64,000 nt of DNA, taken from Suttonella sp. R2A3 (GTDB lineage: Bacteria; Pseudomonadota; Gammaproteobacteria; Cardiobacteriales; Cardiobacteriaceae). The stretch lies in NCBI RefSeq assembly GCF_021513215.1, contig NZ_CP090975.1:427501-491500 (forward strand), given 5' to 3'. Made by a program: the position numbers and the translations under genes. A model generated the notes under the pieces. It had not been told where the DNA came from and ran no database searches. It was given only the letters and a program-made list of their open reading frames with translations. Positions 25,478 through 35,260 of this stretch are shown piece after piece (the stretch's first letter is position 1; every line of letters begins with the position of its first letter).

Positions 25478-25498
25478 CATTTTTTTTTAACAAAAAGC

Positions 25499-25526
25499 TT
25501 GCATCATCATCTAGAGCATTTATAAT
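25499..25526 (+). promoter_or_regulatory. Sigma-70 promoter of tRNA-Lys
   Basis: TTGCAT (25499-25504), 16-base spacer, perfect TATAAT (25521-25526), then GTGCGCC as a GC-rich discriminator typical of stable RNA genes. The tRNA begins 21 bases after the -10 box. Confidence 0.8.
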
Positions 25527-25546
25527 GTGCGCCTTCCAACACAGAT

Positions 25547-25621
25547 GGGTTGTTAGCTCAGTGGTAGAGCAGTTGGCTTTTAACCAATTGGTCGAAGGTT
25601 CGAATCCTTCACAACCCACCA
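25547..25621 (+). tRNA. tRNA-Lys (anticodon TTT)
   Basis: Complete cloverleaf of 75 bases including encoded CCA (25619-25621). The acceptor is GGGTTGT/ACAACCC, the D-arm GCTCAGTGGTAGAGC, the anticodon loop CTTTTAA on stem TTGG/CCAA, and the T-arm GAAGG-TTCGAAT-CCTTC (25594-25610). It closely resembles other gammaproteobacterial tRNA-Lys. Its 3' half is repeated three more times immediately downstream. Confidence 0.97.
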
Positions 25622-25678
25622 TCTCCCTCTTCTTATCCAAACCAAGTAGCCTGATTCATTATTTGCACATTTAGCCTT

Positions 25679-26029
25679 GGCTTTTAACCCTTGATCAATA
25701 TGGGCTCGAAGGTTCGAATCCTTCACAACCCACCATCTCCCCCTTCTTATCTAAACCAAGTAGCCTGATTCATTATTTGCGCATTTAGCCTTGGCTTTTA
25801 ACCCTTGATCAATATGGGCTCGAAGGTTCGAATCCTTCACAACCCACCATCTTCCCCCTCTTATCCAAACCAAGTAGCCTGATTCATTATTTGCGCATTT
25901 AGCCTTGGCTTTTAACCCTTGATCAATATGGGCTCGAAGGTTCGAATCCTTCACAACCCACCATCTTCCCCCTCTTATCCAAACCAAGTAGCCTGATTCA
26001 TTATTTGCACATTTAGCCTTGGCTTTTAA
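25679..26029 (+). repeat. Three 114-bp tandem repeats carrying the tRNA-Lys 3' half
   Basis: Units at 25679-25792, 25793-25906 and 25907-26020, then a 9-base start of a fourth (26021-26029). Each unit is GGCTTTTAACC (anticodon-loop segment), a 16-base insert with the palindrome TTGATCAA, the full T-arm hairpin and acceptor 3' strand with CCA, and about 56 bases of spacer ending in AGCCTT. The tRNA plus its trailer (25575-25678) is the founder: identical layout except AATTGG in place of the 16-base insert. Units differ by only a few bases. The layout recalls the 3' tRNA-Tyr repeats after E. coli tyrT that yield rtT RNA. Confidence 0.92.
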
Positions 26030-26145
26030 TAATTTCCCAACTTCTACCTGGCTTTCGGACAAAACCTGTTTTAAAGCGCTTACATTAATCCCTATTTAAG
26101 AACGCTCAAGAATTCCCTTAAGCGATCCGCTTTGTGTCGTTTATA

Positions 26146-26154
26146 TGCTAAAAT
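26146..26154 (+). promoter_or_regulatory. Extended -10 element upstream of purL
   Basis: TG-C-TAAAAT at 26146-26154, 32 bases before the chosen purL start. The -35 region is poor. No PurR-like operator is recognised near it. Confidence 0.35.
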
Positions 26155-26185
26155 TGAGCGGTTTTTTAACTGTGGAATTCTCCTT

Positions 26186-29100
26186 ATGCCTCATCGTCTG
26201 TTTATCGCTAAACGTCCAGCCTTTCAGCGACAAGCTGCACACCTTGAACGCCTCAAAGAGCAGCTCAATATCCCGAGTTTATTGTCTTGGCAAAGTGTGG
26301 CGATTTACGATATCCATCATTGTCCTGAGGCGTTATTAGAGCGCGCACAGTCAAAGGTATTTGCTGATCCAGTCAGCGATGAAGTATTAGATAAATTACC
26401 AGAAAGCGACTTTACGCTGGTTGTTGAACCTCTGCCAGGACAGTTTGATCAACGCGCTGATTCGGCAGAACAATGCCTGCGTCTGATTGATTCAGACTTC
26501 GCAGACACCGTTGTCACCAGCGCTGTGGCTTATTTATTTACTGGCGCCCTTAATGACGATGAGCGCGAGCGGTTACGCAACCATTTCATCAACCCGATTG
26601 AGAGCCGCGAAAAAGATTTATCGGTTTGGGAGTTACCTGAACCACATGAACCTGCGCCTGTGCCTCGCTATGAAGACTTTAACGCCCTAGACGATACCGC
26701 ATTACTCGCTTGGCATGAAGCACACGGCCTCGCAATGACTCCAGCCGATCTTGCCTTAGTACAAGACTATTTCCGTGAACAAGGTCGAGCGCCAAGTGAA
26801 ACAGAAATCCGCGTACTCGATACCTATTGGTCGGATCACTGCCGCCACACAACCTTCACCACACGGATTGAATCACTCGAGTTCCCTGCAGGTGATTTTG
26901 GCAATCACCTGCGCCAGGAATGGTCACGCTACCAGGATCAACGCCAACACGTTTATGGCACAAAGGCAGAATCTCGAGGCGATAGCCTGATGGATTTAGC
27001 CACCATTGATGCGAAATATTTACGCCAGCTTGGCAAAATCGATGACGTTGAATTTTCTGCTGAAGTGAACGCCTGTTCGGTCTTTGTTGACGTTGATGAA
27101 GATGGTCAGCAAAGCAAGTGGCTATTGCAGTTTAAAAACGAAACCCATAACCACCCGACCGAAATTGAACCCTATGGTGGTGCGGCAACCTGTATTGGTG
27201 GGGCCATTCGTGATCCACTTTCAGGTCGTGCTTTTGTCTATCAAGCATTGCGCCTATCCGGCAGCGCTGACCCACGTGAGCCGATTGGTAAAACCTTACC
27301 CGGAAAATTACCACAAAGTGTGATCGCTGAAGGATCAGCCGCAGGTGCCTCATCGTATGGTAACCAGATTGGTCTGGCTACCGGACAAGTGGTCGAGCTT
27401 TACCATCCTGGTTATAAAGCCAAACATATGGAGGTCGGCGCGGTGGTGGCCGCAACTCCAGCCGATCATGTGGTTCGTGAAGAACCCCAAGCCGGTGATG
27501 TTGTGCTATTACTAGGTGGCGCAACCGGCCGTGATGGTTGTGGTGGTGCCACTGGTTCATCACGCGCACAACATGGTGAATCCCTCAGCGAAAGTGCCGC
27601 GGAAGTACAAAAAGGCAACCCACCTGAAGAACGCAAATTACAGCGCCTATTCCGCAAAAAAGCTTTCGCCCGTCATATCAAACGCTGTAATGATTTTGGC
27701 GCTGGTGGTGTTGCCGTAGCCATTGGTGAGCTTGCCGATGGACTCTCAATCGATCTAGACCAATTACCGGTAAAATACCAAGGCCTGTCAGGCACAGAAT
27801 TAGCGATCTCTGAATCGCAAGAGCGAATGGCAGTAGTTGTTAACCCGCAACACGTGGCAACGATGCAAGCGCTAGCGGCCGAAGAAAACCTAACTGCTAC
27901 CCATATTGCCGATATTACCGACGATGACACCTTGACCATGCGCTGGCGTGGTGAAGTGATTGTATCGCTGAAGCGTGCCTTTTTAGATACCGCTGGTGCT
28001 GATTTGAGCCAAAGCGTCGTACGTCTGCCGGATATCAATCAAAATGAATCGCCACTCGCGAGTGATCAGTCAGATAATGATTGGTCAGAGACCCTTAAAA
28101 CGCAGCTTGCGAGCCTTGAATTTGCCGATCAACGCGGTCTTGGCGATCGTTTTGATCATAGCGTCGGTGCAGCAGGCGTATTATTACCTTATGGCGGTTA
28201 TAGCCAACGCACCCCGGCTGAAGCTTCAGTGTATATGTTACCCACTGAGGGACAAACCCATACCGCCTCTATCCTTGCCTACGGATTTAATCCCAACCTG
28301 AGCGCATGGAGCCCGTATCATGGTGGCGTTTACGCGGTTATTGAAGCAACCGCACGTTTGGTGGCTTGTGGTGGAGATGCGAACAAGGCGCACTTTTCTT
28401 TACAAGAATATTTCCGTCGCTTAGGCGATAACCCAGAATATTGGGGACTGCCATATGCGGCCTTATTAGGCGCACACTACGCCCTATCGCGCTTGGAACG
28501 CGCAGCAATTGGCGGCAAAGACTCGATGAGCGGCAGCTTTAATGATTTGCATGTCCCACCAACATTAATCGCTTTTGCTGTGAGCACAGTAGACACACGC
28601 CAGGTGATTAGCCCCGAATTTAAAGCAGCCGGCCACCAACTCTATTGGTTACGTTGTCCACAAAATGCGCTAGGCCTCCCAGATATGGATGCGTTTATCG
28701 CCAATAATCAATTTATTCATGAAGCGATCAATGAAGGACTGATCCAAAGCATTCGTAGCGTGCGCCATGGTGGCATCATGCAAGCACTTTATGAGAGTGC
28801 ATTGGGCAACCGTATTGGCGTTGAAATTGAACAACTCGATGATTTATTTGGCCCAGAATACGGCGGTTATTTAATTAGTGCTGAAGGCGGATTAGGTATT
28901 GCGCCGAACCTCTTTAATATTGGTTATACGGTTGACGAAGCAACGCTCTCGATTAACGGGGTGAGCGAAGACATTGATACGCTGCATGAAATCGCAGAAA
29001 ATGTGCTTGAATCGGTTTACCCACTCAACCCAAGCCAACCAACACGTAGTGGCCCTGTAGCGCTCGCAAGCGCCGAGCAATCGATTAACCATCAGGCACC

Positions 29101-32712: not shown

Positions 32713-32743
32713 GTCAATAAAGTGCCGTTTGGCCTTTATTGAC
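32713..32743. terminator. Shared hairpin between purM and dnaQ
   Basis: A 10-bp perfect stem GTCAATAAAG (32713-32722) and CTTTATTGAC (32734-32743), with GCC-GTTT-GGC continuing the stem inside after one unpaired T. The dnaQ stop codon lies inside the right arm. It sits between convergent genes; no long T run. Confidence 0.55.
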
Positions 32744-33422
32744 GGCCAATCTCAGCGAGAATACGCTGATGCTCAGCCTGTTCGGCCTCACTCACGCTCG
32801 CTATCACCCAAGAGCCTTGATCCTCAGGGATTACCCCAGGCGCCGTAGCCTGGGGGCTTGGGGCTTGCATACTCAAATCCAAACTGTTCTGCCCACCGGT
32901 TAGGCGTAAATACACCTCGGCGAGCAATTCAGCATCAAGTAACGCTCCGTGTAAATCACGACTGCGGTTATCGACATTGTAGCGTTTACACAGGGCATCA
33001 AGATTGTTGCGTTGCCCTGGATGTCGCTCACGCGCAATCTCTAACGAATCGATTAAATGAAAGCGATCAGCTAACGGGCTGCCGCCATCGAGCAGTCGTA
33101 TTTCCTCATCAAAAAAGGCCTGGTCAAAGGCCATATTGTGCGCGATCAGCTCATCAGCGCCGTTCAGATACGCCCACAATTGGCCAGCGATCTCTTTAAA
33201 GCTCGGTTTATCGGCAAGAAATTCATCGGTAATCCCATGCACATTCACCGCTTCCGGATCAACACTGCGATCGGGCTTGAGATAGACATGAAAATGATTA
33301 CCTGTCGGCAAGCGATTCACGAGCTCCACACAGCCAATTTCAATAATACGATGACCTTCGGCAACGTTATGGCCACCTTTATTCATACCGGTGGTTTCGG
33401 TATCGAAAATAATCTGACGCAT
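32736..33422 (-). CDS. dnaQ: DNA polymerase III epsilon subunit (3'-5' exonuclease)
   Basis: DEDDh exonuclease of 228 residues. Exo I has Asp7 and Glu9 (IIFDTETTG), Exo II Asp100 (AHNMAFD), Exo III His158 and Asp163 (HGALLDAEL). A linker (about 178-205) and the short C-terminal tail that binds the alpha subunit follow. It proofreads replication in the PolIII core. Unlike in E. coli, rnhA is not divergent from it here; aspS lies upstream on the same strand. Confidence 0.95.
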   Translation of the reverse strand: MRQIIFDTETTGMNKGGHNVAEGHRIIEIGCVELVNRLPTGNHFHVYLKPDRSVDPEAVNVHGITDEFLADKPSFKEIAGQLWAYLNGADELIAHNMAFDQAFFDEEIRLLDGGSPLADRFHLIDSLEIARERHPGQRNNLDALCKRYNVDNRSRDLHGALLDAELLAEVYLRLTGGQNSLDLSMQAPSPQATAPGVIPEDQGSWVIASVSEAEQAEHQRILAEIGRQ

Positions 33423-33481
33423 GATACGCTCCTTAACCGTTGCCTGAATGTTTCGAAGTCATCGCATTAATAATGGATTAC

Positions 33482-35260
33482 TCACGCCTGCTCTGTGCTT
33501 TGCCGACGGCGAATATGCAGTTCACGAAGCTGCGCGTCGCTGACATCAGCTGGTGCATCAGTGAGCAAGCAATACGCGGTTTGGGTTTTTGGAAACGCCA
33601 TCACATCGCGGATAGATTTCGCACCCGCCATCAGCATAATCAAGCGATCTAAGCCAAAAGCGATCCCACCATGCGGCGGACAGCCGTATTTCAGGGCGTT
33701 CAACAAGAAGCCGAATTTTTCTTGCGCTTCTTCAGCGTCGATGCCTAAGCTCTTAAATACGCGTTGCTGGACGGCTTGGTCGTGAATACGAATCGAGCCA
33801 CCGCCGACTTCTGTGCCATTAAGCACCATGTCATAGGCGCGAGAATTGACCTCACCCGGCTTGGTATCAAGCTCATCAAGGTTATCTGTGCTAGGTGCGG
33901 TAAATGGATGGTGCATTGAGTACCAGCGCTGGGTTTTCTCGTCGTATTCAAACATCGGGAAATCAACCACCCATAATGGCGCCCAATCACAGGTCAGCAT
34001 CTCTAGATCATGACCAACCTTAACCCGTAACGCACCAATAGCATCGTTAACTACAGTCGCTTTATCGGCGCCAAAGAAGATTAAATCGCCATCTTGCGCG
34101 CCAACGCGCTCAACAATCGCGTTAGCCACCTCATCGCCTAAGAATTTAACAATCGGTGACTGCAGACCTGCAGCGCCTTGACTGCGATCGTTGACTTTAA
34201 TATACGCCAGACCTTTCGCGCCATAACGCCCAACGTATTGGGTGTAGGTATCGATTTCTTTACGGGTTAGCTGAGCGCCGTTTGGAATATTAAGCGCCAC
34301 CACGCGACCATCAGCTTGTTTTGCAGGCGCTGCAAAGACCTTGAATTCACAGTCTTTAACCAGATCGTCAATATCTTGCAGTTCCAACGGAATACGTAAA
34401 TCAGGCTTATCAGAGGCAAATCGGCGTATCGCTTCGGCATAAGGCATACGCGGGAACGCATCAAAGCTTACATTCATATGCTCTTTGAACAGACCTTGAA
34501 CCATCTCTTCCATCATCGCCATGAGATCTTCTTCGGCGATAAAAGATGCTTCAATATCGAGCTGGGTGAATTCCGGCTGCCGATCAGCGCGTAAATCCTC
34601 ATCACGGAAACAGCGGACAATCTGGTAATAGCGGTCAAAGCCACTCATCATCAGCATTTGTTTGAACAACTGCGGTGATTGAGGCAAAGCAAAAAACTTA
34701 CCCGGATGCGTACGAGAAGGCACCAAATAATCGCGTGCACCTTCAGGGGTGGCTTTAGTCAGCATCGGGGTTTCGATGTCTAAAAAGCCGTGGTTATCAA
34801 GGTAGCGACGCATGCTCGAAACCACTTTACTACGCAAAATTAAATTCTGCTGCATCTGTGGGCGGCGTAAATCAATGGTACGGTGACGCAGGCGCACTTC
34901 TTCGGAAACATCGTCTTCATCAATTTGGAATGGTGGCGTTTCTGAGCGCGATAAAATCGTGAGTTCTTTTGCGAGTACTTCAATTTTGCCGCTGGCTAAA
35001 TCGGCATTAATCGTGCCTTCAGGACGTGGCCGCACGCGGCCTTCGATGGTTAAGCAGAATTCGTTGCGCACTTGTTCGGCAAGGTTAAAAGCCTCTTCGG
35101 TATCCGGGTCAACCACAACTTGGACTAAACCACTACGGTCGCGTAAATCGATAAAAATGACCCCACCATGGTCGCGGCGGCGGTGTACCCATCCTGAAAT
35201 GCGTACGGTCTCACCGTCAAGTTGTTCGGTAACTTCAGCGCAATAATGCGTTCTATACAT
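33482..35260 (-). CDS. aspS: Aspartyl-tRNA synthetase
   Basis: Class IIb synthetase of 592 residues (E. coli 590). An N-terminal OB fold with [26 protein letters not shown] (about 19-44), motif 2 [20 protein letters not shown] (about 217-236), the bacterial insertion domain and motif 3 [13 protein letters not shown] (about 531-543). The first 8 bases overlap the stop of the small membrane protein gene upstream. Confidence 0.97.

Follow-up and report, generated by a model that had tools for sequence, protein, structure and literature searches.

The closest described system to the locus reported here is the rtT/RttR RNA, with tpr, of the tyrT-tyrV locus of Escherichia coli (RF00391), in which tandem repeats, each closing with a tRNA 3' end and CCA, stand behind a tRNA operon, and in which an insert lies within the tRNA-derived part. 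The end of the tyrT operon is Rho-dependent, and the regions in which Rho terminates transcription are C-rich and G-poor. External transcribed spacers of tRNA transcripts can act as sponges, as exemplified by 3'ETS-leuZ. As read from the E. coli K-12 sequence, each tyrT-tyrV repeat has AATCCTTCCCCCACCACCA as its end and a longer insert that splits its T-arm. PMC2965389 ties rtT-like elements to BIMEs. A different kind of tRNA remnant is found in Islander islands and in the attP of phage S2, where a 3' tRNA fragment starts at the anticodon arm and keeps the orientation of the gene; the anticodon stem-loop is named as a common integrase crossover site in PMC4383910.

The locus described here lies in a window of 64,000 nucleotides (the whole stretch of DNA that was analysed) and consists of an intact tRNA-Lys gene followed by a tandem array of its own 3' half (Table 1). 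The preliminary description had reported three 114-bp units behind the tRNA, each with an insert, the T-arm, the acceptor 3' strand and CCA, and this anatomy is borne out by alignment and by Tandem Repeats Finder (3.8 copies, 97% matches, 0% indels, with a spacing between units of exactly 114 bp). Each unit, which includes the anticodon arm, contains TTGGCTTTTAACC, the 16-nt insert CTTGATCAATATGGGC, and then 30 nt identical to the tRNA-Lys 3' end including CCA. The array is not a product of chance, given the length and identity of its units, and the repeat number is that of the single-contig assembly (one contig, 1,989,117 bases). The claim that a 104-bp founder carries AATTGG in place of the insert holds; the further claim that this is the only difference does not, as trailer positions differ as well. 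The 85-nt stretch common to the founder and the three units has five variable columns; all five belong to the trailer, and the tRNA part is invariant. Four sites vary among the three units themselves. The 97% identity is consistent with the recent copying or homogenisation proposed earlier.

Table 1. Features of the tRNA-Lys locus (positions in the window)
Feature	Position	Strand	Composition	Basis
Likely tRNA-Lys promoter	25499-25526	+	TTGCAT 25499-25504; 16-nt spacer; TATAAT 25521-25526	by eye
Intact tRNA-Lys(UUU)	25547-25621	+		ARAGORN and Rfam
104-bp founder segment	25573-25676	+	anticodon arm to tRNA 3' end, plus trailer	repeat alignment
Unit 1, 114 bp	25677-25790	+	insert 25690-25705; T-arm/acceptor 3' strand/CCA 25706-25735; trailer 25736-25790	
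Unit 2, 114 bp	25791-25904	+	insert 25804-25819; T-arm/acceptor/CCA 25820-25849; trailer 25850-25904	
Unit 3, 114 bp	25905-26018	+	insert 25918-25933; T-arm/acceptor/CCA 25934-25963; trailer 25964-26018	
Truncated last copy, closing the array	26019-26029	+	TTGGCTTTTAA	repeat alignment
Weak terminator-like hairpin, the only one between the tRNA and purL	26120-26132	+	5 pairs	terminator scan and hairpin script

The units do not score as tRNA genes, reaching 14 bits against the Rfam cut-off of 29, and ARAGORN calls the intact tRNA-Lys alone in the array region, with no unit called. In the genome as a whole, Rfam gives 39 tRNA matches (38 above the cut-off), and ARAGORN, run on stretches spanning all 39, returns 39 genes that include one false tRNA-Ile; the tRNA-Lys(UUU) at 25547-25621 is the sole tRNA-Lys among these calls. 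A protein product of the repeat was considered and rejected. The 103-aa frame that runs through the repeats on the minus strand (window 25751-26062) stays open since the unit length, 114, is divisible by three, and is probably meaningless, and the frames that begin at the ATG of the insert differ among the copies when compared by eye. About 7-9 kb downstream of the array, at 32736-35257, there are two genes, one for an exonuclease of the RNase T/DnaQ family and one for an aspartyl-tRNA synthetase-like protein.

The RtT layout, in which a tRNA gene precedes tandem repeats that each carry its 3' end, is present in the Lys array. The parallel with rtT drawn in the preliminary description is thus sound for the layout, the E. 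coli K-12 tyrT-tyrV repeats ending in the tRNA-Tyr 3' end, but does not extend to membership of the RtT family. The Rfam search that it had proposed gave no RF00391 match up to E=10 in 25480-26200, nor any up to E=1 at two tRNA-Asp loci described below, compared with four in the E. coli control locus. The E. coli system also differs in its 178-bp spacing, its tRNA-Tyr origin and its split T-arm, whereas in the Lys array the T-arm is whole and the 16-nt insert stands ahead of it. A search of the literature by titles and the beginnings of abstracts found no description of the present Lys locus. Judged from sequence, the Lys array is rtT-like in layout and lies outside the Rfam RtT family, a comparative origin fits it, and a related tRNA-Asp case is present in two genera.

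The origin of the array was approached by searching for the array together with its tRNA in 40 relatives. This query is matched in 36 of them, each best match starting at or within the tRNA part, and is without a match in 3 of the 31 other genomes of the order (G010, G011 and G017). The order-level loci that were fetched are the best-scoring ones only, from 18 of these 31 genomes, and all 18 contain two or three full tandem tRNA-Lys genes according to ARAGORN; the class-level locus L013 has a single tRNA-Lys. Of the 18 order-level loci, 4 have a Nudix gene upstream (the L012 contig starts too close to the tRNA to tell), and both a flavin reductase gene and the Nudix gene are upstream in only two, those of G001 (L008, same genus) and G007 (L005, another genus of the family). 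In both of these genomes the position of the array is occupied by an intact second tRNA-Lys. Because relatives hold an intact gene at this position, the array is most likely the ancestral second tRNA-Lys without its 5' half, subsequently amplified, and we infer that the truncated TTGGCTTTTAA at 26019-26029 would be a leftover anticodon arm of that gene. The distances agree with such a slot: the starts of tandem tRNA-Lys(UUU) genes are 91-133 bp apart in seven same-family loci and 132-384 bp apart in the other eleven, and the anticodon arms here are 104 bp apart, inside the same-family range.

The preliminary description had also suggested looking for the same layout in relatives, and the outcome was negative: Lys halves with the insert occur in 1 of 32 genomes of the order and 1 of 369 of the class, in both cases the genome of the window, which leaves 0 of 31 other order genomes and, with a similar pattern, 0 of 368 other class genomes. 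The class-wide pattern requires an exact CTTTTAACC and therefore misses Lys genes with another anticodon stem; halves that lack the insert would go unseen as well. The same-genus genome G001 has neither the Lys array nor the Asp insert copies. The lost 5' half is not recognisable in the spacer, where the best local score is equalled by 293 of 1000 shuffles and, when the alignments are anchored, the scores from three scoring schemes are equalled by 500, 124 and 50 of 500 shuffles; the region downstream of the array likewise has no homology above shuffles to the loci of six relatives.

The sequence behind the tRNA was also compared with relatives for signs of how transcription ends. In 14 of the 18 relatives, our own script detects, no more than 35 nt past the last tRNA-Lys, a hairpin that has 7 or more pairs and a T-run. 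Of the remaining loci, L008 has a 5-pair hairpin at 155 nt, and L005, L012 and L021 have none by script, long-loop hairpins being visible by eye in L012 and L021. G001 and G007, which keep both upstream genes, are thus also without a strong terminator by script, yet have no Lys array. Since no good intrinsic terminator follows the tRNA-Lys here, transcription past 25625 is plausible. The TTGCAT and TATAAT elements that probably form the promoter are also seen by eye ahead of the tRNA-Lys pairs at L005 and L009, and a consensus promoter scan did not return the pair at 25499-25526, where its -35 rule is unmet. The composition of the array is unusual, with a maximal excess of C over G per 78 nt of 22, a value found in 0.04% of windows when both strands are counted. 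Restricted to the first 250 nt, this excess is 20, versus at most 14 in all 18 relatives, and among the 38 other tRNA genes of the genome it reaches 20 or more behind one and 19 or more behind two (21 and 19). This C-rich, G-poor region without a strong hairpin has the composition of a Rho-dependent region, a resemblance that is suggestive only, and the array composition appears consistent with a Rho-type ending. Rho-dependent ends of tRNA operons such as tyrT share with this locus the lack of a good hairpin terminator and the C-rich, G-poor tail.

The possibility that the units are stably folded RNAs was rejected, as their stability is no greater than that of shuffled sequences. No unit folds better than its shuffles, and the fold of the whole array is not clearly better either (z -1.04, with 14 of 100 shuffles as good).

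The reading to which we give roughly even chances is that the array is transcribed as the tail of a tRNA operon, much as rtT is, that it arose from a decayed second tRNA-Lys amplified by unequal exchange, and that its transcription is ended by Rho. The ancestral locus would have held two tandem tRNA-Lys genes, as the present relatives do. The second gene would then have lost its 5' half, and a short insert would have entered between the anticodon arm and the T-arm. Unequal exchange or replication slippage between anticodon-arm repeats (TTGGCTTTTAA) may have multiplied the segment of 3' half and trailer. Transcription from the tRNA-Lys promoter probably runs on through the resulting array and yields a long tail, rich in C and poor in G, whose end would be set by Rho and not by a hairpin. 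The tRNA would be freed by RNase P together with enzymes that trim 3' ends, and the CCA-ended repeat fragments would be by-products, like the rtT of E. coli tyrT. The fragments so released might have a selected function. The preliminary description had proposed that they would be processed into small RNAs, act as decoys for tRNA enzymes or compete for the 5' acceptor strand. By analogy with sponges of the 3'ETS-leuZ type, the tRNA trailer, here present in four copies, could be freed in maturation.

A second case comes from the same genome. Each of the 39 called genes was represented by its final 26 nt, and extra copies of these (at most 3 mismatches) were sought within the fetched stretches. 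Such copies were found at two loci only, the Lys array and a Val-Asp-Asp locus. At the latter (G000:C1:1852.6-1853.2 kb; L059, reverse strand), the Val-Asp-Asp genes are followed by two decayed tRNA-Asp copies that carry CTTGGCTTAATATGG and CTTGACTTAATATGG ahead of the anticodon arm and retain a near-perfect T-arm, acceptor and CCA. One of them is miscalled as tRNA-Ile(AAU) by ARAGORN and scores 28.8 bits, slightly below the Rfam cut-off of 29. Both copies sit behind two terminator-like hairpins. G007 has Val-Asp-Asp followed by two Asp copies as well (L099, L172), with the inserts CTTGCAAATCATGG and CTTGAAAATCCATGG, and the four Asp inserts occupy the same tRNA position in two genera. In G001, G004, G005 and G009 the Val-Asp-Asp position is occupied by two plain tRNA-Asp genes. 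The middles of the G007 inserts, TTGCAAATC and TTGAAAATCC, resemble the anticodon loops of tRNA-Cys and tRNA-Phe, which could be chance. In a scan of 84,980 named genomes, possibly without the window's own, the Asp pattern occurs in one record, JAUMXB010000028.1, a Cardiobacteriaceae metagenome-assembled genome whose match ends coincide with those of the G007 contig.

Across the four Asp copies (those of G000 and those of G007), changes number 1 over the 112 sites of the 3' module and 26 over the 181 sites of the 5' and anticodon parts (Fisher 3.4e-5), a p-value that is generous because the four copies are two related pairs and the segments were drawn after the pattern had been seen. Gene conversion by the intact neighbours could account for the unchanged 3' module, and decayed Asp copies with an intact 3' part possibly represent an intermediate stage toward a half-tRNA array. 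In another family of the order (L110 in G023, ~1570-1677), a tRNA-Asp copy within an Asp array has its D-arm region replaced and its anticodon arm, T-arm and CCA intact. Broader patterns yielded no further cases: apart from the Lys units and the Asp copies, the order-level matches in 8 of 32 genomes are all intact tRNA-Gly genes with 5' flank, and the strings matched by a generic class-wide pattern in 27 of 369 genomes resemble, outside the genome of the window, ordinary tRNA genes (many of them tRNA-Ser) or other sequence, both as judged by eye.

The inserts of the Lys and Asp copies all run CTTG...ATGG. The score of the Lys insert against psi2, one of the own-genome Asp inserts, is equalled by 0 of 20000 shuffle pairs and 6 of 63483 16-mers of the window, that against psi1, the other, by 45 of 20000 shuffle pairs and 74 of 63483 16-mers, and those against the two G007 Asp inserts by 339 and 185 of 20000 shuffle pairs. 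When the whole Lys unit outside the T-arm is compared, the Lys-Asp match is ordinary: 123 of 1000 shuffles are as good for psi2 and 16 of 1000 for psi1, the latter via a tRNA-derived stretch. The best matches to the G007 Asp units are equalled by 501 and 69 of 1000. A loose 15-nt insert pattern with two mismatches allowed has 16 matches in the window, 13 of them outside the array versus 6.2 expected and a maximum of 12 in 100 shuffles. Since the whole-unit match is ordinary and the loose pattern is over-represented in the window, the resemblance between the Lys and Asp inserts, which was noticed after the fact, is suggestive of a link. The idea that the insert is a dispersed genome repeat was rejected: the 15-nt Asp form, which does not catch the Lys insert, one base shorter, occurs with at most 1 mismatch at 13 places, of which 2 are the Asp copies and 11 are scattered, and its reversed control occurs at 5. 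The Asp insert form was found in 0 viral contigs, and the bare Lys 16-mer in 12.

If the 3' modules (T-arm, acceptor 3' strand, CCA), each with the CTTG...ATGG insert ahead of it, were an RNA class specific to the family and maintained by selection, the Lys and Asp operons would be sources of functional small RNAs that serve as regulators or as decoys for tRNA enzymes, a reading that we consider unlikely. It draws on the unchanged Asp 3' module (1/112 against 26/181 elsewhere, Fisher 3.4e-5, with segments chosen post hoc), on the insert scores against psi2 and psi1 (0 and 45 of 20000 shuffle pairs), on the shared tRNA position of the four Asp inserts across two genera, and on a predicted fold in which, in all three Lys units, the UGGG of the insert pairs with the acceptor CCCA to give a minihelix with a free CCA. 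This must be set against folding that is no better than shuffled, a whole-unit Lys-Asp match that is ordinary (123/1000 for psi2, and 16/1000 for psi1 through the tRNA-derived stretch), a loose insert pattern that exceeds expectation even outside the array (13 versus 6.2), ATG-initiated insert frames that by eye are not alike among copies, the presence of neither array in the same-genus G001, and the placement of the own-genome Asp copies past two terminator-like hairpins; moreover, gene conversion could equally preserve the 3' part. It is quite improbable, in our estimation, that the Lys and Asp copies form an undescribed Cardiobacteriaceae RNA class in which the insert disables the tRNA fold while the T-arm, acceptor and CCA are kept, so that the RNAs engage tRNA-processing or translation factors. 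The high identity of the units, their occurrence in a single genome among those searched, and the confinement of founder-unit differences to the trailer (the insert aside) would also suit a plain decaying minisatellite, produced by recent slippage and of no consequence to the cell. That reading is very unlikely in view of the comparable, more diverged tRNA-Asp arrangement in two genera and the concentration of conservation in the 3' module of the Asp copies.

The fragments could instead be relics of phage or island attachment, displaced by integrase crossover in the anticodon loop and later duplicated, or could be spare attachment sites. The left edge of the repeat is the anticodon stem-loop, which is among the crossover sites that PMC4383910 names, and query bases 5-49 match, at 91%, the tRNA-Lys-holding attP annotated in Haemophilus phage S2; the Asp copies of G007 have a type I restriction gene behind them. 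Islander islands and the S2 attP are nevertheless unlike this locus, where no island or integrase was found, the fragments lie 104-332 bp away, the insert is inside them and the trailer is repeated. By the attachment-fragment definition in PMC4383910, which asks for a 3' fragment in the gene's orientation that continues to the tRNA end and lies 2 kb or more away, the orientation fits, but the fragments are interrupted by the insert and are only 104-332 bp away. A Pfam scan of 20 of the larger ORFs, purL excepted, of which 10 flank the array and 10 flank the Asp locus, revealed no integrase domain, nor was one present in the 7 ORFs of the G007 contig. The 16-nt insert breaks each fragment, the last copy stops at the anticodon loop and has no 3' end, and the exact 32-nt 3' end is in no IMG/VR contig. 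The array query matches 34 plasmid and 9 phage records, none covering 80% of it, and the ten matches listed cover 10-12%; eight viral matches were rejected as loci with full phage tRNA-Lys genes that span the matched part. Because all copies have the same trailer, duplication in place is favoured over displaced attachment fragments, and we regard the attachment reading as unlikely. The HsdR gene of the type I restriction system adjoins the Asp copies on the G007 contig, which also carries a DUF3800 gene.

The rtT repeats of E. coli had looked like a single-locus oddity, and the Lys and Asp cases add a second and a third tRNA and another bacterial family. Together they suggest a tendency of the last tRNA copies in line to shed their 5' half and retain the CCA half. 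It thereby becomes possible to test if these tails have a role in termination, processing or regulation, or arise only as by-products of recombination.
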